DNA from: a virus
DNA length: 35,014 nucleotides
Strand: one strand, 5' to 3'
Virus record (IMG/VR): IMGVR_UViG_3300007735_000656
Coordinates: 1 to 35,014 of that record
Shown here: positions 3,269 through 35,014 of the stretch, piece by piece
Layout of the letters: every line of letters starts with the position of its first letter
Position numbering within the stretch: position 1 is the stretch's first letter
Made by a program: the position numbers and the translations under genes
The notes under the pieces: generated by a model
Database searches by the model: none
What the model was told of the DNA's origin: nothing
Seen by the model: the letters and a program-made list of their open reading frames with translations, nothing else

Positions 3269-3963
3269 GAATGCACCACAATATCTCTCTAGTGTACAAT
3301 GATATCTTCATATCCATGGAGAGCATCATGAGATTTATTGATAGAACTGGTCAGCGATTTGGTAGGCTTGTGGCTATAGAGAGGGCAGGCACCGACTCAA
3401 ACAAAAAGGTTTTGTGGAGGTGTCTTTGCGATTGCGGCAAAGAAACAATTGCAACATCCGGTTCATTGGTTACAAAAAACACTACGTCGTGCGGTTGTTA
3501 TTTAATAGAAAAAATAACTAAACACGGATCTTATAAAAAATCCTCTTATCATACATGGCGTGCCATGATTAGAAGGTGCAATAACAGCACAGATAAGGAT
3601 TACCCGATGTATGGAGGTCAAGGCATAAAAGTTTGTGAAGAGTGGATGGATTACACAAAATTTGCTGAGGACATGGGTGAACCGGTAGGCGATCAAACGT
3701 TAGATCGCATAGATGCTTATGGGAACTATGAAAAAAACAATTGCAGATGGGCTTCTGTTTCTGTCCAACAAAAAAATAAACGATTGCCTGCATTTAGCAG
3801 CGGTGTAAAAGGCATCATAAATTTTGACAATAATAAATGGATGGCATTCATAAGCCACAAAAATAAAAAATACTATGGGTTAGTTAGAAAGGACTTGCAC
3901 GAGGCAATTGCTGACAGGAAAAACCTTGAGGCAACCTACAGGGCAACTGGACGTGGCGCATGA
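3245..3963 (+). repeat. Diverged direct repeat (3245-3268 and 3940-3963) bracketing the HNH gene
   Basis: The last seven codons of the upstream virion gene and of the HNH/AP2 gene encode RATGQGA-stop and RATGRGA-stop. Most DNA differences are synonymous third-position changes (GCC/GCA, ACA/ACT, GGT/GGC, GCC/GCA), and the stops differ (TAG versus TGA). The second copy provides the ATGA overlap with the following virion gene. The pattern fits insertion of the endonuclease gene at the 3' end of the virion gene. Confidence 0.7.
3328..3963 (+). CDS. Free-standing HNH endonuclease with AP2 DNA-binding domain
   Basis: A 211-residue homing-type nuclease. Residues 8-58 form a zinc-ribbon-like region with Cys32, Cys34, Cys36, Cys55 and Cys57. 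Residues 75-143 carry the phage HNH-like core, from YHTWRAMIRRC to TLDRIDAYGNYEKNNCRWAS. Residues 157-200 match an AP2 domain (GVKGIINFDNNKWMAFI). The ATG at 3328 was chosen because GGAGAG sits a few bases upstream; an in-frame ATG at 3271 has its SD almost touching it. TACAAT at 3295-3300 could be a private -10 box, but no good -35 is seen. The gene is visibly more A-rich than its neighbours and separates two virion genes, both signs of a mobile gene. Its last seven codons copy the end of the preceding gene. Confidence 0.88.
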   Translation: MRFIDRTGQRFGRLVAIERAGTDSNKKVLWRCLCDCGKETIATSGSLVTKNTTSCGCYLIEKITKHGSYKKSSYHTWRAMIRRCNNSTDKDYPMYGGQGIKVCEEWMDYTKFAEDMGEPVGDQTLDRIDAYGNYEKNNCRWASVSVQQKNKRLPAFSSGVKGIINFDNNKWMAFISHKNKKYYGLVRKDLHEAIADRKNLEATYRATGRGA

Positions 3964-5342
3964 GCTTAATTGTTACAACAGATTATGAGTTTACAAGGGT
4001 TGTTGCGCCTAGCCTTCCTATGGCGCCGCAGGAATATTCTGCGTTTTACCAAGACCAGTACAGCAATGTCTTGCGTCTGTATTTCAACCGTCTTGATAAT
4101 TTTCTGGCGAATCTTATGGCTACCACTTCAACGATCCCAGTAACATTTCCGGGGACGTACTTTGATGCGTTTGGCCGTCAACGGGTTAGTGAGCCTTATA
4201 CCCTTTTTGATAGCCAGAATAGATACGCTGCTGACAACCAGTTTGATGTATCAACCACGGGTACAGGTACAACCTCTTTCCTGCCCAACGAAGCAGCCGT
4301 CAAGATGGAAGTTACAGGTGCGGGTGTCGGCTCGGTCATTCGCCAGTCTTATCGATCATTTCCTTATCAGCCAGGGAAGGGCTTGCTAGTACTTGCAACC
4401 TTTGTGATGGATAGCAGCCAGAGCTTAAATCTAACGCAGCGGGTTGGTTACTACAACGACCAAAACGGCGTGTTCTTCCAACGAGTGGATGGAACCTATT
4501 CATTTGTTCTACGGTCTTACGTTACAGGCACGGCATCTGATGCAAGGACCGTAAACCAAGCTAATTGGAATGGTGACAAGTTAGATGGTTCTGGTGCTTC
4601 AGGTTTGACGCTTGATCCAAGCAAGGCGCAGATTCTTTGGATGGATTTTGAGTGGCTTGGTGTTGGATCGATCCGCTGCGGATTTATTATTAATGGTCAG
4701 TACATCGTTTGTCATACGTTTAACAATGCAAACGACATCTCCAACGTTTATATGACCACGGCTATTTTGCCGGTTAGGTATGAGATCAGTTCAGCCACGT
4801 CTGCGGTTGCGGCCAGCATGAAAGCGATTTGCTGCTCGGTTGTTTCTGAGGGTGGGTTTGAACAGACCTCTATTGACCATGTAGCAAGGCGCACCACATC
4901 GTTTACTAATATTGATACGGCAGCGTTTTATCCTATTGTGTCCATCCGTCTTGCTTCTGGACGCACTGGGGCAGTGGTGTTACCCAACCGTACACAGTTT
5001 CTGCCACTAACCAGCCAGAACTATGAAGTGGCGCTAGTCAAAAACACCACGCTTACGGGAGCAACTTGGGCGGCAACTGTGCCGTCTGATTCCAATGTTG
5101 ATTATGATGTGGCTGCTACGGCGATGAGTGGCGGCACCATTGTTCAAACAGATTACGTCACATCAACAGGCAGTGGCGGTACGGTTAACACCTCCACGGC
5201 TACGGGCTACAACTGGGACTTACAACTTGGCGCAACCATCTCAGGCACAAGTGATATTTATACGCTAGGTGTAAGGACTGTATCTGGCGCAACTAAAGGA
5301 GATGGTGTCGGGTCTATTTCCTTCTACGACCTAACCCAATAG
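3960..5342 (+). CDS. Conserved virion structural protein
   Basis: A 460-residue beta-rich protein without a signal peptide. The N-terminal helix (NVLRLYFNRLDNFLANLM, about residues 36-53) and the block FDAFGRQRVSEPYTLFDSQ (69-86) recur in virion proteins of environmental phages. The rest alternates short beta stretches with Thr/Ser/Gly loops, as in fibre, decoration or tail-appendage proteins. The ATG overlaps the HNH stop (ATGA). Its original partner was probably the gp10-like gene, and the HNH gene now separates them. The exact position in the particle cannot be told from sequence alone. Confidence 0.75.
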   Translation: MSLIVTTDYEFTRVVAPSLPMAPQEYSAFYQDQYSNVLRLYFNRLDNFLANLMATTSTIPVTFPGTYFDAFGRQRVSEPYTLFDSQNRYAADNQFDVSTTGTGTTSFLPNEAAVKMEVTGAGVGSVIRQSYRSFPYQPGKGLLVLATFVMDSSQSLNLTQRVGYYNDQNGVFFQRVDGTYSFVLRSYVTGTASDARTVNQANWNGDKLDGSGASGLTLDPSKAQILWMDFEWLGVGSIRCGFIINGQYIVCHTFNNANDISNVYMTTAILPVRYEISSATSAVAASMKAICCSVVSEGGFEQTSIDHVARRTTSFTNIDTAAFYPIVSIRLASGRTGAVVLPNRTQFLPLTSQNYEVALVKNTTLTGATWAATVPSDSNVDYDVAATAMSGGTIVQTDYVTSTGSGGTVNTSTATGYNWDLQLGATISGTSDIYTLGVRTVSGATKGDGVGSISFYDLTQ

Positions 5343-11082: not shown

Positions 11083-14000
11083 ATGGCACTTCAAACAGCT
11101 ACTAACCCCCAAACTGGGGAAAGCGTTGCGCTGGTTGGTAACCAATGGGTGCCCATAACCCAGACAGCCACTAATCCAAAAACCGGGGCAAAAGCCTATT
11201 TGGTTAACAACGAATGGATGGTGGATGAAGTAGCTGCAAAACCCACTACGCCGACTACGTCTGCACCAGCAGCACAACCGCAGCCGTATAAGTCAAAAAC
11301 AGAAGCTCTTGATGACGCAGTAAACCTAATTGAAGAGGGTGCACCTGCTGAGTTGGTTCGGCAGCGGTTTGAACAGGCTGGAATTAAATGGCCCGAAATT
11401 ATTAAACACGGGCAAGCTCGCGGTAGTGATTATTTTAAAACCGAAGCCATACCCCCTGGCACTGCGGTATCTACTGCCCCGTCTGGCGAAATCAAACCAT
11501 CTCCTGAAAAAGGCGCAGTCAAAGCCACAACGGATGCGTTCAAACGCGCAGGGGCTAGTCTTAGTGATGTAGCTACAAGTTATTTGTTCCAGACAGGCGC
11601 TATTGATCCTGATGATGCTGGGCGCTTATTAGCTAGAAACGCAAAGCAGCGTGCCGCTGCTGCTCCTGAAGCTGACATACAAGAAGGCATGATGAAGATT
11701 GCCGACTCCAAAACATTTGGAGAGGCAGCAACAAACTTAGCTCTTAATCCACGGGCTACTTTTACGATGCTTGTGGATTCTTTACTTGTGTCTGCGCCAA
11801 GCATGGCGGCGATGGCTCCTTTTCTTGGGGCGTCTGCTGTTACTAGAGGAATTGCAACTGGTCTTGGTTCGGGAGGATTGGAGTATGGCAGTGTTATGGC
11901 TGACGTACTTCAGGACAAAGGTGTTGATCTGTTAAACGCAGAGCAAGTAGGTAAAGCACTTTCTGATCCAAAAATAATTGCAGAGATGAAAGACCGAGCC
12001 GCAAAACGCGGTTTGGTTGTTGGTGCTGTTGATGGGTTAACTGCTGGACTTGCTGGACGATTTGCTCAACCAGCTCGACAACTTATTGCAGAAGGAAAGC
12101 TCGCAGGTAATGCAGCAAGAAAAGCAACCGTATCGGCTTGGGCAAAAGAACTAGCACTTCAAGCGGGTGGTGGCGCAGGTGGTGAAGCGTTAGCGCAAAA
12201 AGTTGCTGGGGAAGAATTTAAACCTGCTGATATTTTGCTAGAAGGTATAGCGGAAACATTTACTGCACCTTTAGAAGCTAGGGGTGCTTTACGTGAAGCA
12301 AAACAACTTGAGGCACAGCGCAAAGAACGTACGCTTGATGCAGAGCTAACTAAAGAACAACAAATAGATGCTCTAACTCAGCAGCTTGTTCAGACTCGTG
12401 GGATGGCTGAAGAAGACGCCAGAAAAATTGCCACCATGCGGGTAAACGCATTAGCCGTAGAAGCTCAAAAGCGTGAGACCGAAGCTGAAGAAGAAAGAAA
12501 AGCAAAGCTACGCGAAGGGTTAGCTATACCTGACAATGACCCAAGAGTGCAGGCTTACGCTGGGGAGCTACTTGACAATAATATCGTTAGCACTAAAGCT
12601 GAAGCTATTGCGTTAGCCAAAAAACGGGTCGCTGATGAGGAGGCCGCAGATGCAGCAGGTGCAGAAGATGTTATTGAACCTACCGTTGCAGGAGGTGGAG
12701 AGGGCGTTTCAATTTCTGGCGGACCCCCTGGAGCAGAGCCCCCCGGAGGAGTTGCACCATCTATCGACACTGGAGTGGCAGGCGCTGAGCCTGCTGCTAA
12801 ACCAACTGTACCACGAGAAGAGCCTCCACCTGCTGAATTAAAACCTACACGCGATACGCTGTACGACCAAGCAAAAAATCTAGTAATTGAAAGCCAACGG
12901 GCAAGCGTTTCGTTAATTCAACGTGGGTTAAGAGTTGGGTACAACCGCGCACAACGTATTCTTGAGCAGTTAGAAGCAGAAGGTGTAGTTTCTGCAAAAA
13001 ATGCCAATCTTGTCCGTTCAGTTTTAGTTGAAAAGCCAACGCCTAAAGAGGAAGCCCCCAGTGTCACTGCGCCCACAGAAACCGTCGAAGCAGAAGAAAC
13101 GCGAGCAGCAACGCCTGTTGAAGGAGCAGAAGTGGCAGAACCTGCCGCAGAAACTCCTAGAGCCAAGGCTATCAAACGACTTTCAGAACTCACAGAAGAA
13201 GTTAGGAAACTAGAGTCAGACAAACTTACGGGTTTCGCCAATGAAATCGACCCAGAAGTAAACAAAGAAACAATAGCCAACTACGCTGATGAAGACCTTG
13301 ACGAATTAGTAAAAGATATTGAACGGCAAGTTGCTCGGCAAAAACGAGGCGCAGCAACATTTGATCTTTTTCCTGTTTTAACAGGTGATGGTTTCATTAC
13401 GTATGTAGACAATGAAGAAACAGCAGCAGCGTATGGTAAAGAAAATAAACCCCCAGAATTAGAACAAGTTGACTTTGAAAATCTGTTGATTGCGCCGACT
13501 ATGAACCAAGCTAAGGTAAAGCTTGGTCTGCCCGAATCGGCAAAAATGTCTACCTTGATGCAAACTGCATCTGATAAGGGGTATGACGGTATTACGTTTA
13601 AAAGCTCAACAGGTCAGCAATATTTATTTTTCCCGTATCAACGCCCATTTGAAAGTGTAAGTCCTTCGGCTGCATTAAGTGGTGCGCCTGTTAATGAGCG
13701 CCTAAATAAAGTTAGCAATGCTGTCCAAGGGTTAACGGTTGTTGCACAAACAGGCGACGATCTACAAAAAGCACTGGCTAACAGATTTAAGTCTGTGGCT
13801 ACGAACGTGCCTGTTGTTGTGCTTGAACAGAACACGCCACTACCAAAACAAATTGCGGATAACCCAGCACTAAAAGATAGCTGGGATGTTGCTAATGCCA
13901 TGTACGTCGGTCCAGCGTACGGTCAGCCGACTATATATTTACGTGGTGCTTCGTTTGGTGACCAGCAAAGTGTTAACAATGTAGACATGCTGCATGAGAG

Positions 14001-17000
14001 TGCCCATGCTGCACTCGATAAAAAGTTAATTACTGCCGAGAACATGGCAGAAACCCAAGGTGTTATTACTGGGGTAAGTAAAGACCCGCTAGTACAGGGG
14101 TACGCAGAGCTGCAAGAAACGATGATGCTTGCTCAGCAAGCATACGACGAAGCGGTAAAAGACGGCACTATTGATCCCGAAGTGCTTGAGCTTGGCGAAA
14201 CACTTAACGTATTTGATAGCCCCCGTGAGTTTGCAGCCTACGGCACATCTAACCCGTACTTTGTTAAGTTTCTTAAGTCAGTTAAAACGCCAGCTAGGTA
14301 CAGCTCAACAGGTCGAGACAAGACACTGTTTACTAAGTTTGTTGAAGCTGTTCGCAAGATTCTTGGGCTTGCACCTAATCAATTTAACGCACTTGCTGAT
14401 TTGTTCGACATCACCGACAGGATTGCGTCCATGCAGGTTCGGCCTGCACAAGAACTTATTGGCCTGCGCGGTAAACAGCTTAAGACTGCTAAAGAACGTG
14501 CACAACAACAGAAACCATCGTTGGCTGCAAAGAAGCCCACTTCAAAAACAGTAACAGCTACGCCTTCTGCAAATATGCAACGCATAGCAGATATGATAGC
14601 TAACATTTATAGTAACCCAGAGCAAGTACCTGAAGTGTCGATCAAAGAACTGTTTCAAAATTCTTTTGACGCAATTAAGGGTGGTATTGAAGAAGGGCTC
14701 CAAACAGTAGGTAATATAAAAATAAAAATAGACAAAGCAAGCAGGTCTATTACTGTTATTGATGACGGCCCTGGTATGCCAGCTAGTGTTATGGGCAATC
14801 AATTTTTACAAATTGCTGGGACTGTAAAAAAGACAAAACGTGCGTCCGGTGGATTTGGCGTTGCAAAGATGCTGTTTTTACTTAAAAACAATGAACTAGA
14901 AGTGTTGTCTTTAAACAATGGCGAAATAGCTCGTATGGTTACAAGTGGAGACGAGCTTAGGGAATCATTTGGTGATCCCAGTAAATCTCCTAAAATTGAA
15001 ATTACTTCCGACCCTAAAGTTGTTAAACAATATACAAACTCAGTATTTCCTGAAGGGCATGGTACGTTAATACGTGTTGTAGTTCCTGAAACTTATGTTC
15101 AACAATCAACGGGAGAAACTAAAGATATACCGTTTGACGCATGGAACTTATCACGTAGTAATTCTCTTGAGCATAGTCCGTTGTTTGAAAATATTAATGT
15201 GCTGTTAGACCAAGGCTGGGGCTACAGTACACTTCCGTTAGGCAATGCTTTCCCAATAGATGAATATACTGTCTTTTCTAAAGTTAAATTTAATTGGGGC
15301 GAAGCACGTATTTATATATCAAAAGACGAATTACCTTACGCGCCTTATTATAATGCTAACATATTGTCAAACGGCATATATCAGTTTGGTACAGCAATTA
15401 AAGATAAACCTGGGTATGGTGGAAAAAACATTAAAAGAAATTTTTATATTGATGTATCGCCTAACGAAAATATAAAGCCAGAAGACCCTGGTTATCCATT
15501 TAATTTAGATAGGCAACAATTTTCTCTTGCCGCCAAAAAAGATTTTGATAATATCTTCAACTACATAACTCTTACGTTTGCTCAAGCTGAGTATGGTAAA
15601 GAGGTACAAAGTTTTGGGGTGGTGCAGTACATAGAACCTGATGGTAAATTAAGTTCTCCTGAAGAGCTTAAGCCTGAAATACCACCAGCCCCAACTGGGC
15701 TTACACTCATTAAACCTACGGACAAAGTAGAAGTCAAAGATGGGGTAATGACCATTAACAACAGACAAGTCCCAGAGTTGTCCGTAGACGATTTGTCTAA
15801 AGTTAAAATAGAAATTGATGAACTTAAAATTCCACAAGACAAAATTGACCCCACACGGGTCATGGTCCATGACAACCTTGTTAAAAAACTAAGTGCGGAT
15901 GAATTAAACGCGTCATCTATATCTCGGACAGATGTTGTTAACTACGAAAAAGACGACACCGGAGTCATCATTGGTGGTACAGTACCGTTTACGGCGGTAG
16001 CACGAGAAAAATTTGGCGCTCGGTTTGACGCTTACTTAAAAGAAGTAGGCGACATATTTATGCAGTTGCGCGAAGTGCTGGTAATGTCTGACCCAAGTTA
16101 CGCCAACTTAGAAAAAGAAGCAATTGGAGTAAGTTTTGATAAAGAATATCTTGGGGTAAGCATACGTGTTCCGTTTAGTGGGTCTTTCTTAAACCCTGCG
16201 TCTACGGATTTAGAAGATAAAGGAACACCTGCTCAAATTGCTGTATCCATGATTGGCACGATGATCCATGAATTAGCGCATTTTAAAGTACGTAATCATG
16301 GTTCAGATTTTGCTAAGGAAATGCAACGCGACATTATGTATTTAGAGACGATGCCTGGGTTTGATCTGGCAGACGTAAAGAACAGCTTTGCCAAGTTCTT
16401 AGCTAAGAACATGGACATTTATCAGTTCTTAAACAAGGAGTTTAGAAGTGGAGATCTTGAGTCTGTTGGAAAGCGCTTCTCGGACGCTAGCAACGAACAA
16501 GCCGGAGATGGTCGCATTACTGAGCCAGTGGAAGTCGCTGGCGGAAAAGGAGAAGGGAAGCAAGGAGTACCCGGAGGCGCTAAACAAAGCCCTCAAGGTG
16601 TTGAATCGGTCGGCCTCCCTGCCGGAGTTTCTGGCGAAGCTGCGGAAAGAAGAGCAGCAAGAACCCAAAAAGAAATCGACAATGCAGTAGATGAAGCCGT
16701 TGAGAAATACGAAACTTCTAAACGTGCTGAGGATTTAGCAAAGCAAGCTTCACTTATATACAAACTGCGTAATGGAAAAAATATTTTCCCCGCACTTGCC
16801 GCGATATGGCGCGGTACAAACTACCGCATTCGTCAAGGTTTAGTTAAGCCAGTAACAAACGATTTCCTAGCTGAATGGGCTGGGAATGATATACCTCGTT
16901 TGTTAGAAGTTAACAAACAACTGCAACAACTAAGCGGCATGGCACAAAAACTTATGGGTGCGGCTGCTGATCTCTCGCGTAGTATTAATAATGCGTTTAG

Positions 17001-19569
17001 CCAAGACCCTACGCTTCGCGCTAAGTTAGATGAAATTACAAAAGTAACAACCCTTGCACAGGTTGACCCCACTGCTGAAATTCGCAGTGAGCGTATAAAC
17101 AAAATGTTTGAAAGCCTTGGGCCAGAAGGCAAGCGTATATATAACGACGTAAAGCAATACTATGATGATATGGCTGAGCTTTATAGCTCACTGCTTGATG
17201 ATCAAATTAACGACGCTAACATACCGCCTGAAGCAAAAAAGAAGTTGTTAGCTTCAATTAGAAAAATGTACGAAGGTGAAGGTCGGCTTGACCCTTACTT
17301 CCCTTTGATGCGAGATGGGGATTTTTGGCTTTCTGTGTATGTAGGAAACACAAAGCAATTCTTTATGTTCCCAACAATGGCTGAGCGTGATGCTGTTGCT
17401 GCTCAAATGGCTGCGGATCGTAAAGATGATCTAGATAACTTACTCGAAACCAAACGGTTTGAAATCGGCAACGACTTACGTAAGTTACGGGAATCATCTA
17501 CAAGGGCAATAAACGGCCAACATCCTAGTGCAATATTGAAAGCTACTTTTGACTTAATTGATAACGCCGACTTCACAGACATTACCGCTCGTGAAGATAT
17601 GAAAGATGCTGTGTATCAATTGTATCTACGCACAATGCCAGAACAGTCCTTTAGAAAGCAGTTCATTGCGCGTAAAGGATACGCAGGCTTTCGCACCGAT
17701 TTGCTCCGTGACTTTAACGAAACATCGTTAAGAATGTCGTTGCAACTTGCTCGGCTTAAGTACGCACCTAAGTTGCGTAATACGTTGTCGGCTGCTCGTG
17801 ACTCTATACAAAATAGACCAGAGCTTGAGCCCTTTGTGTCTCAAATGGAAACACGGGTAGCGCAAACACTTAACCCCAATACTCCCGGTGTGCTCGACAA
17901 AATAGCCAGCTTTGTTAACAAAGCTTCGTTTATCTATTACCTTTCTGGTGCGTCTTCTGCGTTGTTGCAGCCACTTGGCATCGTTCAAACAGGCATACCC
18001 ATACTTGGTGCTCGTCATGGGTACGGAGCCACAGCCGCAGAAATGACTAAGTTGATGAAGATATGGGATCAATACGGCGTTATGCGTAAGACTGCAACAG
18101 GCAGCTCCGTTTGGTCACCACCCTCAATCATGAATGCTTCTGGCCTTACAGCAGACGAACGTGCTGCTGTAGAAAGTATGCTGGCTAGGGACGTAACTCA
18201 AAACACTTATGCGCGTGCACTGTTTGATTACAAAAACGTACCTACAGAAGAATTTGGTTCTGTAGCGCAGCGCGGAAAGTATTACGCAAATATGGTAGTT
18301 GGTGGGCTGTTGCACTCAACTGAAAGACTTTCCCGTGAAATTTTGTTCTTAGCTTCGTATCGGTTGTCTAAAAGAAAAAACCCAAACATATCTGAAGAAG
18401 ACGCTATAGATCAAGCCGTTCAAGATACTAACGATGCGCTCGGCAACTACGGTGAATACAACCGCCCGATGATTATGCGTAATGCAGGCGGCAAAATCAT
18501 GTTGCAGTTTCAGATGTACCCACTGCATGTGACTTTGTACTTAATGAAAAACTTTAAACGCATGATTCCTTTCCTTAACAAAGAAGGTAAGGCCGAGGCT
18601 GCAAAAATATTCTGGGGTACGATGGCAAGCACTTGGATGCTTGCTGGTGCTGCTGGACTACCTATGTTTAGTGCAGTAATGGGCTTGCTAGGGTGGGCTT
18701 GGGGTAACGCCGACGATGACGAAAAACCAAAAGATGTTAAAGATTTAAGTTTTGAGCTTTGGTTCCGCACGATATTTTTACCCGAAGTGCTTGGGGATTA
18801 CAAAATTAACGGTAAGAGCTTGAGCGAGATTGTTGAACGTGGGCCTATGAACGCGCTCACTGGGTGGGATTTGTCTTCTCGTACACAGCTCAATGATTTG
18901 TGGTTCCGTGATATTAAGGAAACCAAAACACCTAGAGAGGAATTGCAAGCCTACGCCATTGAGAAAGCTGGCCCTGGTGTAAACATGGTGCTCAATCTTG
19001 CCGACTCATATGAGGCTTTCCGAAACGGAGACTACCAAAAGGGCGTGGAGAAAATGTCTCCTGCGTTAATACGTAACTTTATACTTACTCATAAGTACGC
19101 CACTGAAGGCGCTAAAGATAATAAAGGCGCTCAGATTTTAAGTAAGGATGCGTTTACGACAGGTGAGCTTGTCGGTCAAGCTATTGGGTTCCGTTCAGAC
19201 CTTCTTGCCAACACGCAAAACGTAACCTTCAAACTTATTGGTATTCAGCAACGTATTGAGAACGAACGTCAGAAGTTGTTTGACAACATCGACCGTGAAT
19301 ACCGCAAACAAAACTTTAAGGCTTACAACCAACTAATTACCAAAGACCTTGTTGAGTTCAACAAAAAGTATCCCTCGTTCAAAATTGAGGCTGACCAGCT
19401 TCAAGACTCGTTGGAGCGCAGAGCTAAAGACCGTGGTGAGTCTTGGCGTGGTCTGCGGTTGTCAGAAAAGAATGCAGCGTTGCTTGCCCCTGCTGCCACA
19501 GTATCGCGTAAAGCAGTTGCCGAGCGTGAGCGTGAGGCGAAAAAAATCCCGACGGAGGGTCGGGAATAA
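11083..19569 (+). CDS. Giant polyvalent virion protein: FtsK-gamma, ART-like, two zincins, GHKL ATPase
   Basis: A 2,828-residue protein, probably packaged and ejected with the DNA. Residues 4-49 hold two tandem copies of a TATNP...NEW/NQW repeat. About 220-270 are weakly hydrophobic helices. Residues 593-650 match the FtsK gamma winged helix (SQRASVSLIQRGLRVGYNRA). About 760-855 resemble the end of a phage ADP-ribosyltransferase domain (KGYDGITFKSS). H971-E-S-A-H975 is a zincin motif in a polyvalent-type metallopeptidase. A GHKL ATPase follows: Glu1189/Asn1193 N-box, DDGPGM at 1227-1232, GGFGVAK at 1256-1262. H1729-E-L-A-H1733 plus His1739 is a second, SprT/YgjP-like zincin. The C-terminal third holds helical, partly hydrophobic regions of the large-polyvalent-protein type (FQMYPLHVTLYLMKNFKRM). 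The GHKL stretch looks more A+T-rich than its surroundings. Domain calls are by motif; the virion role is inferred from position and type. Confidence 0.85.
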   Translation: MALQTATNPQTGESVALVGNQWVPITQTATNPKTGAKAYLVNNEWMVDEVAAKPTTPTTSAPAAQPQPYKSKTEALDDAVNLIEEGAPAELVRQRFEQAGIKWPEIIKHGQARGSDYFKTEAIPPGTAVSTAPSGEIKPSPEKGAVKATTDAFKRAGASLSDVATSYLFQTGAIDPDDAGRLLARNAKQRAAAAPEADIQEGMMKIADSKTFGEAATNLALNPRATFTMLVDSLLVSAPSMAAMAPFLGASAVTRGIATGLGSGGLEYGSVMADVLQDKGVDLLNAEQVGKALSDPKIIAEMKDRAAKRGLVVGAVDGLTAGLAGRFAQPARQLIAEGKLAGNAARKATVSAWAKELALQAGGGAGGEALAQKVAGEEFKPADILLEGIAETFTAPLEARGALREAKQLEAQRKERTLDAELTKEQQIDALTQQLVQTRGMAEEDARKIATMRVNALAVEAQKRETEAEEERKAKLREGLAIPDNDPRVQAYAGELLDNNIVSTKAEAIALAKKRVADEEAADAAGAEDVIEPTVAGGGEGVSISGGPPGAEPPGGVAPSIDTGVAGAEPAAKPTVPREEPPPAELKPTRDTLYDQAKNLVIESQRASVSLIQRGLRVGYNRAQRILEQLEAEGVVSAKNANLVRSVLVEKPTPKEEAPSVTAPTETVEAEETRAATPVEGAEVAEPAAETPRAKAIKRLSELTEEVRKLESDKLTGFANEIDPEVNKETIANYADEDLDELVKDIERQVARQKRGAATFDLFPVLTGDGFITYVDNEETAAAYGKENKPPELEQVDFENLLIAPTMNQAKVKLGLPESAKMSTLMQTASDKGYDGITFKSSTGQQYLFFPYQRPFESVSPSAALSGAPVNERLNKVSNAVQGLTVVAQTGDDLQKALANRFKSVATNVPVVVLEQNTPLPKQIADNPALKDSWDVANAMYVGPAYGQPTIYLRGASFGDQQSVNNVDMLHESAHAALDKKLITAENMAETQGVITGVSKDPLVQGYAELQETMMLAQQAYDEAVKDGTIDPEVLELGETLNVFDSPREFAAYGTSNPYFVKFLKSVKTPARYSSTGRDKTLFTKFVEAVRKILGLAPNQFNALADLFDITDRIASMQVRPAQELIGLRGKQLKTAKERAQQQKPSLAAKKPTSKTVTATPSANMQRIADMIANIYSNPEQVPEVSIKELFQNSFDAIKGGIEEGLQTVGNIKIKIDKASRSITVIDDGPGMPASVMGNQFLQIAGTVKKTKRASGGFGVAKMLFLLKNNELEVLSLNNGEIARMVTSGDELRESFGDPSKSPKIEITSDPKVVKQYTNSVFPEGHGTLIRVVVPETYVQQSTGETKDIPFDAWNLSRSNSLEHSPLFENINVLLDQGWGYSTLPLGNAFPIDEYTVFSKVKFNWGEARIYISKDELPYAPYYNANILSNGIYQFGTAIKDKPGYGGKNIKRNFYIDVSPNENIKPEDPGYPFNLDRQQFSLAAKKDFDNIFNYITLTFAQAEYGKEVQSFGVVQYIEPDGKLSSPEELKPEIPPAPTGLTLIKPTDKVEVKDGVMTINNRQVPELSVDDLSKVKIEIDELKIPQDKIDPTRVMVHDNLVKKLSADELNASSISRTDVVNYEKDDTGVIIGGTVPFTAVAREKFGARFDAYLKEVGDIFMQLREVLVMSDPSYANLEKEAIGVSFDKEYLGVSIRVPFSGSFLNPASTDLEDKGTPAQIAVSMIGTMIHELAHFKVRNHGSDFAKEMQRDIMYLETMPGFDLADVKNSFAKFLAKNMDIYQFLNKEFRSGDLESVGKRFSDASNEQAGDGRITEPVEVAGGKGEGKQGVPGGAKQSPQGVESVGLPAGVSGEAAERRAARTQKEIDNAVDEAVEKYETSKRAEDLAKQASLIYKLRNGKNIFPALAAIWRGTNYRIRQGLVKPVTNDFLAEWAGNDIPRLLEVNKQLQQLSGMAQKLMGAAADLSRSINNAFSQDPTLRAKLDEITKVTTLAQVDPTAEIRSERINKMFESLGPEGKRIYNDVKQYYDDMAELYSSLLDDQINDANIPPEAKKKLLASIRKMYEGEGRLDPYFPLMRDGDFWLSVYVGNTKQFFMFPTMAERDAVAAQMAADRKDDLDNLLETKRFEIGNDLRKLRESSTRAINGQHPSAILKATFDLIDNADFTDITAREDMKDAVYQLYLRTMPEQSFRKQFIARKGYAGFRTDLLRDFNETSLRMSLQLARLKYAPKLRNTLSAARDSIQNRPELEPFVSQMETRVAQTLNPNTPGVLDKIASFVNKASFIYYLSGASSALLQPLGIVQTGIPILGARHGYGATAAEMTKLMKIWDQYGVMRKTATGSSVWSPPSIMNASGLTADERAAVESMLARDVTQNTYARALFDYKNVPTEEFGSVAQRGKYYANMVVGGLLHSTERLSREILFLASYRLSKRKNPNISEEDAIDQAVQDTNDALGNYGEYNRPMIMRNAGGKIMLQFQMYPLHVTLYLMKNFKRMIPFLNKEGKAEAAKIFWGTMASTWMLAGAAGLPMFSAVMGLLGWAWGNADDDEKPKDVKDLSFELWFRTIFLPEVLGDYKINGKSLSEIVERGPMNALTGWDLSSRTQLNDLWFRDIKETKTPREELQAYAIEKAGPGVNMVLNLADSYEAFRNGDYQKGVEKMSPALIRNFILTHKYATEGAKDNKGAQILSKDAFTTGELVGQAIGFRSDLLANTQNVTFKLIGIQQRIENERQKLFDNIDREYRKQNFKAYNQLITKDLVEFNKKYPSFKIEADQLQDSLERRAKDRGESWRGLRLSEKNAALLAPAATVSRKAVAEREREAKKIPTEGRE
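19540..19564 (-). terminator. Intrinsic terminator of the leftward operon
   Basis: Read leftward, CCCGAC and GTCGGG form a six-pair GC-rich stem around a five-base loop, followed by A and seven T. The plus-strand side lacks a T-run, so it acts on leftward transcripts only. It lies inside the last codons of the giant plus-strand gene, about 65 bases beyond the last leftward gene. Confidence 0.8.
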
Positions 19570-27854: not shown

Positions 27855-28212
27855 GCCGCCCTCAACTTTTCAGAGATCCTTGCCTTCCAAGAGTTCCAAT
27901 CCTCTCCTGGCCTAGCAGGACAATTTACTTTCGCTGCCATCTCAGCAGTGCCTTTTTCTGTTGCCCACCACACAACAACCTTCTCTTGTGCAGGGCGATT
28001 TCCAGTTCATCTTCCCATCTTCCTTGATTCAACCACGTAGCAGGGTGTGGGATGAACTCCTGTCCCGTACCTTTCACTTGGTAATACTTGTTGTGCGTCA
28101 CCAGAGCCTCTACAGCAGACTTTTGCTCTTGCGATGATAGTTTGGCCCATGCTTTCTGTGCAGCACGTTTAGCGACCTTTCTTGGGTATTTGCTCCAGAA
28201 CTCCTCGAACAT
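27851..28212 (-). CDS. Replication-protein-like gene with a -1 frameshift
   Basis: The first 70 residues match the C-terminal part of many phage replication proteins: MFEEFWSKYPRKVAKRAAQK and FIPHPATWLNQGRWEDEL. A strong AAAGGAGG lies four bases before the ATG at 28212. In this frame the protein soon degenerates and stops at 27925. The -1 frame, open from about 28006, gives the expected ending: VVVWWATEKGTAEM, then PARPGEDWNSWKARISEKL. It stops at 27851, overlapping the next ATG as ATGA like its neighbours. Together they make about 120 residues. A one-base loss or sequencing error is the simplest reading; no classic slippery heptamer is seen. The domain may load helicase or bind DNA; it stands alone, without the usual N-terminal initiator domain. 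Confidence 0.75.
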
Positions 28213-28232
28213 AAGACCTCCTTTCAAAAGCC

Positions 28233-28754
28233 TTACGTTAACGCTTCTTTTCCTTCTTGAGTGTCGTCTTGATGACTTTTTGCATCCATCTGTCTGCCAA
28301 TAAGTGCCGCCCATACAAGCCCGCCAAATACCTTAGAAATAAACTGTAAAAGCATGATCCCAGGCATTAAAGATCCAAAAACAATAGTCGGAAACACAAG
28401 AGAATCGACTGCGGCTCCGGCAACGTTGCTTTTGTTGGCCCTTGAAAACCACGAACCTTTCATCTTTACAAATACAACCCAGTCAACCAGTGCAGCAAGC
28501 GTAAACGCGCAAGCCGACGCTACGGCAATTTTTCCACTAGCAGGGTTAAGCAAATAAGTAAGAACTCCAGACGAAGCTATAAGCGCACCCATCTGCCACA
28601 GTCTTAGCCTTACATGTAACCAATCTCTTAACGCCAAATCTAAGCCTATAAAGAGAAAAGCATTGATCGGGCTGATTGCTGGCCCAAATGCAGCAACCGA
28701 AAGATTGGCAAGCGTCATTGCAATCGTGTAAATGCCAATAGCTACGTAAAGCAT
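28233..28754 (-). CDS. VUT-family transporter, probable queuosine-precursor (preQ0/preQ1) importer, YhhQ-like
   Basis: A 173-residue inner-membrane protein with about five hydrophobic segments. The blocks SPINAFLFIGLDLALRDWLH and NKSNVAGAAVDSLVFPTIVF match the VUT_1 (YhhQ/QueT-type) family, whose E. coli member imports the 7-deazaguanine preQ0. The C-terminus is a short hydrophilic tail. AGGAG precedes the ATG by five bases, and the gene overlaps the DpdA-like gene by 13 bases, so the two are co-transcribed. That pairing strongly suggests it supplies the modified base for DNA. The exact substrate (preQ0, preQ1 or queuine) cannot be read from sequence. Confidence 0.85.
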   Translation of the reverse strand: MLYVAIGIYTIAMTLANLSVAAFGPAISPINAFLFIGLDLALRDWLHVRLRLWQMGALIASSGVLTYLLNPASGKIAVASACAFTLAALVDWVVFVKMKGSWFSRANKSNVAGAAVDSLVFPTIVFGSLMPGIMLLQFISKVFGGLVWAALIGRQMDAKSHQDDTQEGKEALT

Positions 28755-29425
28755 AAGTTCTCCTGTACGGGTCTAAGTTTCCAATGGTTCGGTGGGTTTT
28801 CTGAGTCAATACGCTTTGCCATGCAATGAGCGCATTCTTCTTTTTCTTTGTGATGCAAAGCGACGTTCGTTGAGTCTGCGCTTGATAAAGGCCAGCGTTC
28901 GAGCCCCTGCCCTAACATCCGCATTCCATGCGTCCAAGGTAGCCGACCAAATGTTTTCGCAAGCCGGTTGAATGTTTCGTCCATTCTGCCCTGCCACTTT
29001 GCATCACCAACATTCCAGTATTCACCAGATGAGCCGAGGCAAACTCGACCCCAATCGTCTACAAGCTCGCAAAGGTAATCTAACGATAAACCTAGATGCC
29101 AAACGGGAATGCCTAAAGACTTTGGGAAAGGCCATGTCGCAGTCATTTCTTTTTGTTGTTCTACAGAACCATCAATTACATCAGGAACAACACCCCAGTG
29201 AGGGTGGGCAAGTATTGGGTCTATCCAGTCGTAGAAACCGTGTAAGTCAAACGGAACCCCTCTTGTCTTGCAGCTAAAGGCTCCGTTATCCAACATCAGT
29301 GATTGACCGATTTTTAGACAAGTTTTTAAGTCTCTTGGCTCAAAGTAAGAAATGCAGAAGTGTTCACCGGCTAAAGTCTCTAGGACTGATCTAGGTGTAA
29401 TAGGTGTACCGTGGTAGTGGATCAT
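28742..29425 (-). CDS. dpdA: DpdA-like DNA-guanine transglycosylase
   Basis: A 227-residue member of the tRNA-guanine transglycosylase (TGT) superfamily, phage DpdA type, which exchanges guanine in DNA for a 7-deazaguanine. It starts MIHYHGTPITP, then CISYFEP at 24-30. LMLDNGAFS at 43-51 places a probable catalytic Asp46. Asp82 follows in VVPDVIDG, then PVWHLG, LGSSGEYW, the TGT-like HGMRMLGQG (166-174) and SSADSTNVAL. It is shorter than tRNA TGTs and lacks their zinc site as usually arranged. The ATG at 29425 was preferred to an upstream start at 29515 because family members begin at this point; its SD is poor. Which deazaguanine is inserted, and at which sequence, is unknown. Confidence 0.85.
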   Translation of the reverse strand: MIHYHGTPITPRSVLETLAGEHFCISYFEPRDLKTCLKIGQSLMLDNGAFSCKTRGVPFDLHGFYDWIDPILAHPHWGVVPDVIDGSVEQQKEMTATWPFPKSLGIPVWHLGLSLDYLCELVDDWGRVCLGSSGEYWNVGDAKWQGRMDETFNRLAKTFGRLPWTHGMRMLGQGLERWPLSSADSTNVALHHKEKEECAHCMAKRIDSENPPNHWKLRPVQENLCFT

Positions 29426-29671
29426 GGTAGTTTTAGGATATTTCCTCCAAAAGACCCCCCTACCCCAACAGGAGTAGAGAGGGAAGGTTCCTCCGCTGTC
29501 AAGCAGCATCTGCATGTTCTTGCGAACCCCTCGGCTTGCAGATAAGACCAGCCGACCGGATTATTCGGGAACTGCCCCCTAGTCTTGCGACATACCGGCT
29601 ATTGCTTTCCTTCCGCGCCACCACAACTAAGGTGCTTGCTAACGTGCGGAGTACGGTTGTCGAGAGGCAAT
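29426..29671. other. Leader/intergenic stretch upstream of dpdA
   Basis: About 250 bases with no confident gene. On the minus strand a 41-codon open frame runs from GTG 29624 to 29499 and contains VARLGGSSRIIRSAG. It lacks an SD and I cannot recognise it. The candidate dpdA promoter lies at its leftward end. A frame running into dpdA without a stop (from 29515) is probably leader rather than protein. No tRNA could be folded by eye. Confidence 0.4.
29473..29502 (-). promoter_or_regulatory. Candidate sigma70 promoter for the leftward dpdA operon
   Basis: Read leftward: a perfect -35 TTGACA (29502-29497), an 18-base spacer and TCTACT as -10 (four of six matches). It lies about 50 bases ahead of the dpdA ATG. 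The -10 is weak, so this is a candidate only. Confidence 0.35.
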
Positions 29672-29742
29672 AAAAAAGCCACTTACTGCTGCGCCTAGTA
29701 GCTGTCCCCTAATACCTGGAGGTAGACGCATGAGTAAGTGGC
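29672..29742 (-). terminator. Long structured intrinsic terminator or small RNA 3' end
   Basis: The arms GCCACTTACT (29678-29687) and AGTAAGTGGC (29733-29742) pair perfectly over ten bases. Read leftward the hairpin is followed by six T. The 45-base interior can extend the stem after small internal loops (TGCG with CGCA, then CCT with AGG). It lies 40 bases beyond the stop of the nuclease-fold gene, so it probably ends that transcript. The nested structure is larger than a plain terminator needs. Confidence 0.65.
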
Positions 29743-29782
29743 CTTAACTATTGTTGACAGCTACGACAACAGGCAAATCTTA

Positions 29783-30136
29783 TCAGATTTCAATAACCTT
29801 GCAAGTCCACCCTTCTTTTAACTTACCCCATCCGTGAACCTCGATCTTCCAGCCTGCTCTCAAGATAGCCGGTAAGTGTTCACTCTCTGCAATCTTCTTC
29901 ACCCTGGCTGAGACGTTAGCTCTTGAGGTCGTCTGTACTAAGAGCGTCTCTTCGTCCTTGAGACAGAGAATGTCGCCTATGCCAAACAAGTCCTGCCTGA
30001 TCCTGGCCCACGGGTTCCAGTGTTCGACGATCTGACACAAGTAACCACGCTCACGAAGCGCAGCTAAGGATCGTTGCGTAGGACTTACCGACGAACGGCG
30101 TTTATTTTTGGTATCAGTGGCAGAGATTGTCGTCAC
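29783..30136 (-). CDS. Restriction-endonuclease-fold phage protein, catalytic Lys absent
   Basis: A 117-residue protein of a conserved phage family. It has SPTQRSLAALRERGY (18-32), VEHWNPWARIRQDLFGIGDI (37-56), then a strand ending LLVQTTSRANVSARVKK, and VHGWGK near the end. The layout helix, Asp49/Asp55, strand, Gln68 recalls the PD-(D/E)XK fold of resolvases and VRR-NUC-like proteins. However, Gln and Thr stand where Glu and Lys would act, so it may bind DNA without cutting. The start is GTG with no good SD. Its first codons overlap the -35 box of the divergent rightward promoter, and a structured terminator follows it. Confidence 0.7.
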   Translation of the reverse strand: MTTISATDTKNKRRSSVSPTQRSLAALRERGYLCQIVEHWNPWARIRQDLFGIGDILCLKDEETLLVQTTSRANVSARVKKIAESEHLPAILRAGWKIEVHGWGKLKEGWTCKVIEI

Positions 30137-30155
30137 GATGACAGTCTTATGTAAT
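30127..30155 (+). promoter_or_regulatory. Promoter of the rightward recombination operon
   Basis: TTGTCG (30127-30132), a 17-base spacer and TGTAAT (30150-30155) make a good sigma70-type promoter. A start near 30162 would leave a leader of about 35 bases before the first ATG. The -35 box lies in the first codons of the divergent nuclease-fold gene. Confidence 0.6.
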
Positions 30156-30196
30156 TGATAAGCCTAAGATTACTTCATCACAACAAGGAGCCAGCA

Positions 30197-30388
30197 ATGA
30201 AAGTACATATCAGCCATGTAGTTAAAGCAATAGAAGCACTAAACAGAATTGAAAAAGCAAGCATGAAACAGTTTGAAGATCCAAGGTTTGTCGGAACACT
30301 GCAAGCAGAGGCTCTCATTGCGATGTGGCCGTTAAAACACGCTATCGAAAATAGCAAAACTGAAGTAACCATTGAAGGTGAAGCATGA
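30197..30388 (+). CDS. Small hypothetical protein, first gene of the rightward operon
   Basis: A 63-residue helical protein (MKVHISHVVKAIEALNRIEK, then LQAEALIAMWPLKHAIENSK) with a mildly acidic C-terminus. No family is recognised. The ATG at 30197 has AAGGAG six to seven bases upstream; a frame extending back to 30155 lacks one. The stop overlaps the next ATG as ATGA. Being promoter-proximal, it is probably expressed early and strongly. Confidence 0.7.
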   Translation: MKVHISHVVKAIEALNRIEKASMKQFEDPRFVGTLQAEALIAMWPLKHAIENSKTEVTIEGEA

Positions 30389-30522
30389 GCGTTGACTACG
30401 ATGCTTGGCTAGACAGACAACTTTACGAATACGACAGAGAAAGGGAAAGAGACTATGAGCACCAACAACAGTTGGAACAACAGGAATACGAACTTGACGA
30501 AGTACAAGATAACGAGGAGTGA
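30385..30522 (+). CDS. Very small acidic/Gln-rich protein
   Basis: A 45-residue frame starting MSVDYDAWLDRQLYEYDRER and ending LDEVQDNEE, rich in Asp, Glu, Gln, Tyr and Arg. It overlaps the previous stop as ATGA, which supports translation by coupling. The composition suggests a single charged helix. It shares most of its second half with another small frame. Unknown function. Confidence 0.6.
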   Translation: MSVDYDAWLDRQLYEYDRERERDYEHQQQLEQQEYELDEVQDNEE

Positions 30523-30586
30523 CTGGATCTTATGCACAGCATTAGGGATTTGCTACGGAACACTGCTCTACCTGTTCATCAAATAA
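30455..30586 (+). CDS. Possible overlapping small membrane protein
   Basis: A 43-residue frame, shifted relative to the gene above and overlapping it by 68 bases. The N-terminal half is polar and Asn-rich (MSTNNSWNNRNTNLTKYK). The C-terminal half is a clear membrane segment (ILCTALGICYGTLLYLFIK). AAGGG lies about ten bases before its ATG, and its stop directly precedes the SD of the Sak gene, as expected for a real operon member. It could be a single-pass host-envelope or superinfection protein. The case rests on hydrophobicity and spacing only. Confidence 0.45.
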   Translation: MSTNNSWNNRNTNLTKYKITRSDWILCTALGICYGTLLYLFIK

Positions 30587-30597
30587 AGGAGCCAAAC

Positions 30598-31128
30598 ATG
30601 AAATTCAACGAACTTAGGAAGATCAACGTAACCGAGAAGGTCGAGAAGAAAAACGGACTCTCTTACCTCTCGTGGGCCTGGGCTGTAGATACATTGTTGC
30701 AACACGATCCTACGGCTACTTGGGAGTACAAGCCCCATCAGATGTGGGGCGACACCGTGATGGTGTTTTGTGAGGTCAAAGCATTCGGCGTATCTCGCAC
30801 TGCACAACTGCCTGTCATGGATCACCGTAACAAAGCGATCTCTGAGCCAGATGCTTTCCAGGTCAACACTGCCATGCAAAGGTGTCTAGCTAAAGCTATC
30901 TCGCTCCACGGTATCGGGCTGTACATCTACGCTGGAGAGGATCTGCCAGAGGAGAATAAAGAAGATCCAGCAGACCACCTCAAGATCGTCAGCGAGGCTG
31001 AGAACATGGAAGATCTGAAACAAGCCTTTACGACAGCTTATAAGGCTCTAAAGAACAATCCTGAAGCTATCAAGCAGTTAGACGCAGCTAAGGAACAACG
31101 CAAGAAAGAACTGACGGAGATTAAATGA
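30598..31128 (+). CDS. Sak-type single-strand annealing protein (DUF1071)
   Basis: A recombinase of 176 residues that anneals complementary single strands during phage recombination. The N-terminus is typical: FNELRKINVTEKVEKKNG, then LSYLSWAWAVDTLLQHDP and a beta strand around TWEYKP. The conserved FQVNTAMQRCLAKAISLHG (about 92-110) is followed by LYIYAGEDLP. The Lys/Glu-rich C-terminal 50 residues form a helical tail. The ATG at 30598 has AAAGGAG at six bases; a frame reaching back to 30532 has no SD. The YqaJ exonuclease in the same operon is its expected partner, making a Red-like pair. Confidence 0.9.
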   Translation: MKFNELRKINVTEKVEKKNGLSYLSWAWAVDTLLQHDPTATWEYKPHQMWGDTVMVFCEVKAFGVSRTAQLPVMDHRNKAISEPDAFQVNTAMQRCLAKAISLHGIGLYIYAGEDLPEENKEDPADHLKIVSEAENMEDLKQAFTTAYKALKNNPEAIKQLDAAKEQRKKELTEIK

Positions 31129-33645: not shown

Positions 33646-33886
33646 GTCGTCTGATGTTGAGGAGATAGCGGCAGCGTATAACCAAGCGTTGCCGTTTGTC
33701 GTTCAGGACTGGGCGAAGATGATCTTAAAGTTAGCTAAAAGCAAACGACTTCCGATCATCGAGAAGATCGACAGGATTCACGGACAGAAAATAGGCCAGA
33801 TGGTGCGAGACGAAGTTACCGCGCAACACCGCGGCCCTTCTCAAAACTCCTCATCCCAGCAATCCCCAACATACCGCTCAAAATAA
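33611..33886 (+). CDS. Small hypothetical protein, last gene of the rightward operon
   Basis: A 91-residue basic, helical protein (VEEIAAAYNQALPFVVQDWA, KMILKLAKSKRLPIIEKIDR) with a Ser/Gln-rich tail that overlaps the convergent holin gene by 71 bases. The start is GTG. The family is unknown. A weak GC hairpin (CCGCG/CGCGG, 33819-33834) lies in the overlap and may slow converging polymerases, but it has no T-run. Confidence 0.55.
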   Translation: MASWINLIKQVKSSDVEEIAAAYNQALPFVVQDWAKMILKLAKSKRLPIIEKIDRIHGQKIGQMVRDEVTAQHRGPSQNSSSQQSPTYRSK

Positions 33887-34229
33887 CCCATAGAGCGTCG
33901 GTATCTAACATGGGAGGAGGCTTTACATCTTGCGGGACAATCTGTTCTGCCTGCATCCAAGTCCATGCCCATACCAAAAGCGGATAAGCAAGAAACTGAT
34001 AGAACATCGCACCAGCGCCTACCCAACCGATAGCAGGTCTCCAACCGGCAACAAACATATTCTGATTGGCAGCTTCGACCTTATTGACTTCCATTTGACC
34101 GAGGTCTATTGCTTGGTCGATACGCTTGGCTTCTAACTCAAGCTCCATGCGCTCTTTGTCGGATGTGTGCAGGTCTCCGATAACCTTACCGACTGAATCA
34201 ACGATGGAAGATATTCCGAGCAGGTTCAT
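33816..34229 (-). CDS. Holin-like membrane protein (3TM-type), second lysis cassette
   Basis: A 137-residue protein of the GTA-type three-TM holin group. An N-terminal amphipathic stretch (MNLLGISSIVDSVGKVIGDL) is followed by a charged coiled coil (30-60), then GWRPAIGWVGAGAMFYQFLA continuing into LLVWAWTWM as membrane segments. ALWVILSGMLGIAGMRSFEK with a basic tail closes the protein. The plan mirrors the holin-like gene at the left end. The ATG at 34229 overlaps the endolysin stop as ATGA and was preferred to a TTG at 34253. It should permeabilise the membrane for the GH108 enzyme. Confidence 0.85.
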   Translation of the reverse strand: MNLLGISSIVDSVGKVIGDLHTSDKERMELELEAKRIDQAIDLGQMEVNKVEAANQNMFVAGWRPAIGWVGAGAMFYQFLAYPLLVWAWTWMQAEQIVPQDVKPPPMLDTDALWVILSGMLGIAGMRSFEKGRGVAR

Positions 34230-34726
34230 AGCTTGAGCGTCCTGTTGATCCAACCTAACATGAACTTCATCTGGCTTCTATCCCGCGTCACAATATCTCG
34301 ATATCTAGCAATCTTTGCTAGCGCGTAATAAGCCACAAATAGCTCTGGATTGGCTTGGTTGAGTGCTGATATGGTCTTAGGGCCGATAACGCCATCTGGG
34401 GCCGTTTTGACGCATATCTGGGCAAGTTTGATGGATACGGGAACGCCAGCATTGACAGCAAAGTTAAAGAGGGACGAGGCTATAACGTCATGCGTTAAAT
34501 CATCGCCTTTAATCTTGTCCCAGAAGTTCTCTTTATAGAAGTCTCGGACTAACTGTGTCGGAGGTGTTTCCTGGTAGTCGATGTGCTGCCAACCCTCCCA
34601 TTTTGGGTGCATCTTGCGAGCAATACCCGCGTAGGTCTGACCGCCTCGGTCGCCTTGTACTTCGTGAAGGACGTAACCTCCCTCGTCCTCCATCATCTTG
34701 TCGTAAGCAGATTCAAAGTTAGCCAA
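34226..34726 (-). CDS. Endolysin, GH108 muramidase with peptidoglycan-binding end
   Basis: A 166-residue N-acetylmuramidase. The GH108 signature is clear: Glu15 in MEDEGGYVLHE, then GDRGGQTYAGIARKMHPKW at 25-43 and YKENFWDKIKGDDL. The second half includes SSLFNFAVNAGV and the peptidoglycan-binding type repeat DGVIGPKTISALNQ. No signal peptide is seen. The TTG at 34726 was chosen: GAGGAG lies six bases upstream and the family begins at this point. The upstream in-frame extension lies inside the metallophosphoesterase gene, whose stop overlaps by eight bases. It belongs to a different glycosidase family from the GH24 endolysin at the left end. Confidence 0.9.
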   Translation of the reverse strand: MANFESAYDKMMEDEGGYVLHEVQGDRGGQTYAGIARKMHPKWEGWQHIDYQETPPTQLVRDFYKENFWDKIKGDDLTHDVIASSLFNFAVNAGVPVSIKLAQICVKTAPDGVIGPKTISALNQANPELFVAYYALAKIARYRDIVTRDRSQMKFMLGWINRTLKL

Positions 34727-35014
34727 CTGCTGCTCCTCGGAAATACGCTGTTCCCTCGATAACCTCAACGAGTTCTGGAGGCAAGAGTAAACCATCTCTG
34801 AAACACAAGACAGCAAAGCCTTGACACCAAGGAACAGGGTTGTCCTCGATGTAAGCAAATTGACTACCGTCAGGATCGGCTAGCATCCCTGTAGACACAC
34901 CGTATCGACGTCCTCGATAGTCACCCCAACCTTTGACTTCTAAAAGATGGGTATGCCCTGAGACGGTAGAGATTCCTGCTTTTAGGGTGTTGTTGTAACC
35001 AGAGTGGATGCCTG
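34719..35014 (-). CDS. C-terminal part of a calcineurin-like metallophosphoesterase
   Basis: Ninety-seven codons are open from the window edge to TAA. The visible part has SGHTHL, the GHTH motif that provides the last metal-binding histidines of calcineurin-like phosphoesterases. RRYGVSTGMLADPDGSQFAY, WCQGFAVLCFRDG and LLPPELVEVIEGTAYFRG follow. This ending is common in phage Mre11-like DNA-repair phosphoesterases. The N-terminal metal motifs lie outside the window. The next gene's TTG and SD are inside its 3' end, so the two are coupled. Confidence 0.8.
   Translation of the reverse strand, partial: GIHSGYNNTLKAGISTVSGHTHLLEVKGWGDYRGRRYGVSTGMLADPDGSQFAYIEDNPVPWCQGFAVLCFRDGLLLPPELVEVIEGTAYFRGAAVG

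Follow-up and report, generated by a model that had tools for sequence, protein, structure and literature searches.

A candidate phage gene pair for modifying DNA with 7-deazaguanine in the absence of synthesis genes

Introduction

How might a phage place 7-deazaguanines in its DNA if it lacks the genes that make these bases? The question is raised by an uncultured phage contig, IMG/VR IMGVR_UViG_3300007735_000656, of which we analyzed positions 1 to 35,014 (this whole stretch of 35,014 nucleotides is called the window below). In it, a gene resembling dpdA adjoins a gene for a membrane protein of the VUT/QPTR family, and an earlier note had read the two as a minimal module made of a transporter and a DNA-modifying enzyme.

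Organization of the locus

The earlier note placed the pair at positions 28233-29425, which is exact, and the motifs LDNGAFS, HGMRMLG and SADSTN that it cited all lie in the 227-aa open reading frame at 29425-28742 on the minus strand. The overlap that it described between the importer gene and the gene of the tRNA-guanine transglycosylase (TGT) superfamily amounts to 13 bp (28742-28754), and the same arrangement is found in most close relatives (Table 1). Both genes evolve under purifying selection, with dN/dS values of roughly 0-0.17. Where a neighbouring gene matches a family, it is a replication, recombination, structural or lysis gene, and an Rfam search of window positions 28000-31000 revealed no preQ1 riboswitch. 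We regard the window contig as a partial genome because it has no family match to a terminase, a gene that 8 of the 12 relatives' contigs do have; a circularity check found no terminal repeat in it. Two lysis-type gene sets occur near its opposite ends: in one, a lysozyme-like gene follows a holin-like ORF, and the other consists of a holin and an endolysin (window 123-1129 on the plus strand and 33816-34858 on the minus strand).

Table 1. Coordinates of the gene pair in the window and of two chromosomal queC-VUT pairs
Feature	Record	Position	Strand	Description
dpdA-like gene	window	28742..29425	-	227 aa; short TGT-fold protein, putative DNA-guanine transglycosylase; phrog_887, E 1e-40; AF2 pLDDT 94.9
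VUT/QPTR-family gene	window	28233..28754	-	173 aa; six-helix membrane protein, putative 7-deazaguanine-precursor importer; Pfam Vut_1, 3e-11; AF2 pLDDT 94
dpdA/VUT overlap	window	28742..28754	-	13 bp; VUT ATG within the last codons of dpdA; from sequence
Shine-Dalgarno AGGAG of VUT	window	28760..28764	-	inside the dpdA 3' end, 5 nt before the VUT ATG; from sequence
queC and VUT	L218	queC 2853-3575, VUT 3568-4146		overlapping pair in a bacterial chromosome
queC and VUT ORF	L219	queC 2679-3407, VUT ORF 3310-3960		overlapping pair in a bacterial chromosome

The DpdA-like enzyme

The enzyme is matched over residues 1-191 by phrog_887, a family annotated as queuine tRNA-ribosyltransferase (E 1.1e-40). 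Other sequence-based searches were negative: it has no match in Pfam, including the canonical TGT family PF01702, nor in NCBIfam or PADLOC, a sequence search of the PDB returned nothing, and profile-profile alignment with hhalign against 12 host TGTs gave an E-value of 0.26, similar to that of an unrelated control. The AlphaFold model (pLDDT 94.9, pTM 0.90) has eight main strands and forms a TGT-type (beta/alpha)8 barrel, which VIA-align matches to known structures with Z 13.6-14.9 over about 205 residues. The first row is the Cap10-CdnD complex (PDB 9ntn; Z 14.9, 3.2 A, 214 residues), followed by archaeosine TGT (Z 14.0) and by Zymomonas mobilis TGT, including its preQ0 and preQ1 complexes (about 13.6-13.9); since Z differences below 1 are ties, Cap10 is tied with the TGTs. 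All of the best 50 rows are TGT-family chains (50/50). Foldseek found nothing in the PDB at E <0.001 and ranked other TIM barrels first, and the structural neighbours in BFVD are phage queuine tRNA-ribosyltransferases. Because the Pfam, PDB sequence and hhalign routes gave nothing and Foldseek was inconclusive, the TGT assignment draws on VIA-align, BFVD and phrog_887.

We aligned 66 sequences, in which the identity of the relatives to the window protein ranges from 34 to 89%. Seven residues are invariant (D46, D82, H110, G131, S132, H166 and R169) and D184 is conserved in at least 90% of the sequences. In the model, the conserved residues sit at or near the ends of strands 3 to 8 of the barrel, with D46, D82 and D184 at strands 3, 4 and 8. 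Judging from strand order rather than residue-level superposition, these three would correspond to D102, D156 and D280, which we take to be the active-site aspartates of TGT. The TGT zinc motif CxCxxC is absent from all 181 DpdA relatives examined, whereas it is present in 9 of the 12 host TGTs. The protein is also more than 100 residues shorter than the host TGTs to which it was compared (227 aa vs 361-414 aa).

A canonical bacterial TGT was considered and rejected, since there is neither a PF01702 match nor a CxCxxC...H zinc site. Membership of the TGT superfamily, and more precisely of the phage DpdA type, had been claimed in the earlier note, with structure prediction and alignment as a way to check it. 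The outcome agrees with the claim: the phrog_887 match, the VIA-align fold match and the conserved active-site-like aspartates point the same way, and the model aligns with the TGT family rather than outside the superfamily. These data support the prediction that the protein is a phage DpdA-group enzyme with a TGT fold. For the DpdA of Pantoea phage vB_PagS_MED16 (hereafter MED16), HHpred gave Thermotoga maritima queuine tRNA-ribosyltransferase with a probability of 99.18% (PMC8306585).

The VUT-family importer

The 173-aa protein matches Pfam Vut_1 (PF02592) with 44.3 bits, above the gathering cut-off of 27.2. Its model has six transmembrane helices in a fold like that of ECF S-components, and its best 13 structural rows are all ECF-type substrate-binding subunits (RibU, NikM/CbiM-type, ThiT, BioY, PanT and others), with Z 8.7-11.1, values that are moderate for helical bundles. 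It scores far below the cut-offs of the NCBIfam transporter equivalogs NF008406 (23.6 bits, cut-off 252) and TIGR00697 (21.3, cut-off 50.95). The description of this protein as a VUT/YhhQ-like importer thus holds for the YhhQ/QPTR/Vut_1 family but not for orthology to YhhQ. It shares with Escherichia coli YhhQ/QPTR (COG1738, PF02592) the Pfam family and six predicted helices, and differs from it in its shorter length and in falling under both equivalog cut-offs. The ECF-S-like nature of the QPTR family had already been proposed.

E. coli YhhQ imports preQ0 (PMC5372724). Moreover, starting from dpdA relatives, we reached two bacterial chromosomes in which queC overlaps a VUT gene (Table 1); one of these VUT proteins, that of L218, shares 36% identity with the window protein over 107 aa. 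Family membership and these chromosomal pairs support, rather than prove, a 7-deazaguanine precursor as the substrate.

Association of dpdA and VUT across relatives

Among the viral relatives found in a first round, VUT adjoins dpdA in all 37 loci that have sequence next to dpdA, with reversed gene order in L035 only. The wider viral set has VUT adjacent to dpdA in 86 of 114 loci (75 downstream, 11 upstream). Among viral relatives with at least 67% identity, adjacency is found in 64 of the 67 evaluable loci (63 downstream, 1 upstream, 3 without VUT), two further loci at contig ends being outside this count. A tree of 174 sequences requires at least 21 gains or losses of VUT and at least 7 changes of gene order; these counts are approximate, as the tree was built with FastTree and has many weak branches. 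Among sequenced phages, relatives of dpdA occur in 106 records and relatives of VUT in 34. Among the listed matches, 12 records hold both, and about 0.07 would be expected if the genes were independent, a figure obtained by hand arithmetic and a contrast that related isolates inflate. The pair occurs in the annotated phages AB3P2, PEAT2, Phc, Tbat1_6, RHph_N3_2 and Pam5. Together, these data support dpdA-VUT as a recurrent, overlapping two-gene unit. The repeated formation of the pair in phages suggests that base supply limits these enzymes.

Bacterial genomes differ: 59 of their 67 evaluable dpdA loci have no VUT adjacent, so DpdA can persist without it. One might then suppose that the two genes are neighbours with unrelated ends, VUT moving another purine or a vitamin and DpdA using host-made preQ0. 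That most prophage dpdA relatives lack VUT would fit this idea, as would the equivalog scores of the importer and the heterogeneity of COG1738, which may include transporters of other purines (Zallot 2017, PMC5372724). However, the pairing has arisen repeatedly and independently in both gene orders, and VUT is also paired with queC in bacterial chromosomes, which makes unrelated functions improbable.

Several further observations concern these loci. The dpdA genes of L011, L012, L015 and L036 and those of L009 and L013 are equally near the window gene (88-89%), yet their VUT genes split into one set with 65-69% identity and one with 85-91%, a pattern that would fit an exchange of the importer allele. 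In L033, a relative of dpdA (2405-3076) is interrupted by a single in-frame stop codon, and the VUT beside it is intact. A PP-loop-like gene of about 273 aa, possibly PAPS-reductase-like, with the motif SFSGGRTSGYML, lies about 1.1 kb upstream of dpdA on the same strand and recurs in L182 and 22 other loci. Finally, a gene resembling a cytosine-5 DNA methyltransferase (CSGIEAATAAW...) is found upstream of dpdA in L200 and 17 other loci.

Source of the base

We searched the window and the contigs of 12 relatives for the QueC, QueD, FolE, radical SAM and QueF families and found no match. The earlier note had reported no synthesis genes (queC/D/E, folE) in view and proposed a wider search for preQ0 synthesis genes; the first statement is borne out for the window contig, a partial genome, and the search of the window and the 12 contigs likewise yielded none. 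Even relatives whose contigs have a terminase match and measure 37-38 kb are devoid of preQ0-synthesis genes. In Caulobacter phage DMCA (L043, 3705-4726), a gene annotated as 6-carboxytetrahydropterin synthase (QueD) abuts the dpdA relative.

A strong QueC match occurs, by our reading, in 47 of the 50 bacterial genomes that encode a relative of dpdA; host-made preQ0 would therefore usually be available and the importer probably supplements the host pool. The proposal that the phage scavenges the base from the host or its surroundings was an inference, and has to be weakened accordingly, since the importer may merely top up this pool. The three genomes without a strong QueC match are G016 and G017, which carry VUT, and G030, which does not, i.e., 2 of the 8 VUT-carrying genomes vs 1 of 42 (hypergeometric p about 0.06, computed by hand). 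This is only suggestive of VUT-carrying dpdA loci favouring hosts without preQ0 synthesis, and some such contigs are perhaps mis-binned.

Target and level of the modification

Two prophage relatives bear on the target. In a Rosenbergiella prophage (L100:5998-7683) the DpdA-like domain is fused to MethyltransfD12 (E 4e-51), and in a Pantoea ananatis prophage (L124:6001-7695) it is fused to Dam (E 1e-39). Both partners are DNA adenine methyltransferases, of two different families, and the fusion of the same domain to both favours DNA as the shared substrate. No sequenced phage record covers either fusion over its full length, so such fusions may be rare. The virion DNA of MED16 contains dADG at 0.13% of G, and the restriction enzymes tested on it were not noticeably affected (PMC8306585). 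From the two fusions and the MED16 data, we infer that DNA is the target. The fusions give a direct reason to consider DNA for a subfamily whose measured modification is puzzlingly low. Among other phages with a singleton DpdA, 7-11 has 0.02% and Orion none (PMC6884629). Proof of DNA marks by gene deletion exists for the DpdA of CAjan, a phage with full preQ0 synthesis (PMC6884629); in the papers covered we found no deletion tying the subfamily of the window enzyme to such marks.

The best-known enzymes with the TGT fold act on tRNA, and phage genes of the DpdA family are annotated as queuine tRNA-ribosyltransferases. The phage could thus import a queuosine precursor and use it to raise or alter wobble-base modification of tRNA during infection, and Hutinet et al. 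do discuss a tRNA role for phages that have pathway genes but no DpdA (PMC6884629). We nevertheless consider a tRNA target unlikely, given that the zinc motif is missing throughout the subfamily, that the enzyme is so much shorter than the host TGTs compared (227 vs 361-414 aa), that a full TGT is already encoded in all 12 host genomes tested, and that relatives are fused to methyltransferases of DNA.

A protein target is suggested by the first structural row. Cap10, of type IV CBASS, acts together with Cap9 and binds a CD-NTase that is deazaguanylated; there are reports of deazaguanylation in CBASS (PMC11996544) and of a QueC-like enzyme acting in Qat (PMC13329287). The window enzyme might then modify or bind a deazaguanine-bearing protein, or interfere with host immunity based on deazaguanine (type IV CBASS or Qat), and VUT might adjust the nucleobase pool. 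This seems very unlikely to us: the lead of Cap10 in Z (14.9 vs 14.0 for the next row) is a tie, PADLOC matches neither gene, dADG is present in MED16 DNA, and the known fusion partners act on DNA. Membership of the Cap10 group itself was rejected, as neither a Cap9-like nor a CD-NTase-like gene was recognised among the identified neighbours in the window.

The nearest measured relative, MED16, has so little dADG that protective hypermodification should not be assumed. A more speculative reading, which we find doubtful but less so than a tRNA target, is that the zinc-motif-free TGT-fold subfamily and its importer place rare 7-deazaguanine marks at particular DNA sites, or on a protein by chemistry of the Cap10 type, rather than bulk hypermodification, and that these marks serve signalling, packaging or immune evasion.

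Comparison with known systems

The arrangement is known in kind since 2019. Hutinet et al. assigned DpdA-only phages to a "third group", possibly able to import exogenous precursors, and reported YhhQ homologues in some phages (PMC6884629). The window resembles this group in having DpdA without synthesis genes. In their data YhhQ was not correlated with any phage group, in contrast to the strong link that we observe within the DpdA subfamily of the window. A phage DpdA with a transporter and full synthesis is known since 2021: Enterobacter phage EC151 has DpdA and a phage preQ0 transporter like the window, but also folE, queD, queC and queE (PMC8310023).

The enzyme of MED16 (gp38, cluster DpdA/TGT_1, PMC8306585) is 39% identical to that of the window. 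The two phages share a singleton DpdA, the lack of preQ0 synthesis genes and a DNA-metabolism gene neighbourhood. MED16 differs by a longer gene (786 bp), by no VUT found beside dpdA and by its measured dADG. The same gene pair is found in the order dpdA-VUT, as in the window, in Acinetobacter phage AB3P2 and Rhizobium phage RHph_N3_2, and in the order VUT-dpdA, unlike the window, in Pectobacterium phage PEAT2, Flyfo siphovirus Tbat1_6 and Enterobacter phage Phc. In these five phages the genes overlap or lie within about 50 bp of each other. In the literature covered, which leaves out several later papers and reviews, we found no report of the recurrent overlapping pair with its order flips, of the methyltransferase fusions, or of Cap10 as the closest solved fold. 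Beyond the known kind, the fusions, the order flips, the missing zinc motif and the top structural match to Cap10 make up a moderate addition.

Proposed mechanism

On balance, we think that the two genes probably, though by no means certainly, form a phage module that modifies DNA with 7-deazaguanine and carries no synthesis genes. VUT would be translated from the dpdA mRNA through the ribosome site inside dpdA, an arrangement that suggests translational coupling of the two genes. In the inner membrane, VUT would import preQ0 or a related base, adding to the host-made supply. The short DpdA would then swap selected guanines of the phage DNA for the imported base, by a TGT reaction using the active-site aspartates. 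The modified DNA may end up with preQ0 or with its amide, ADG, at a level that may be low or limited to certain sites, and the benefit would presumably be protection from host nucleases. Should the pair be able to run on imported base only, it would constitute a two-gene route for 7-deazaguanine into DNA.

Elsewhere in the window, a gene at 11083-19569 on the plus strand encodes a protein of 2828 aa with an FtsK gamma domain, a GHKL/HATPase region and a large polyvalent domain. Its C-terminal part resembles the antirestriction protein DarB, and it is possibly a second anti-restriction factor of the same phage.
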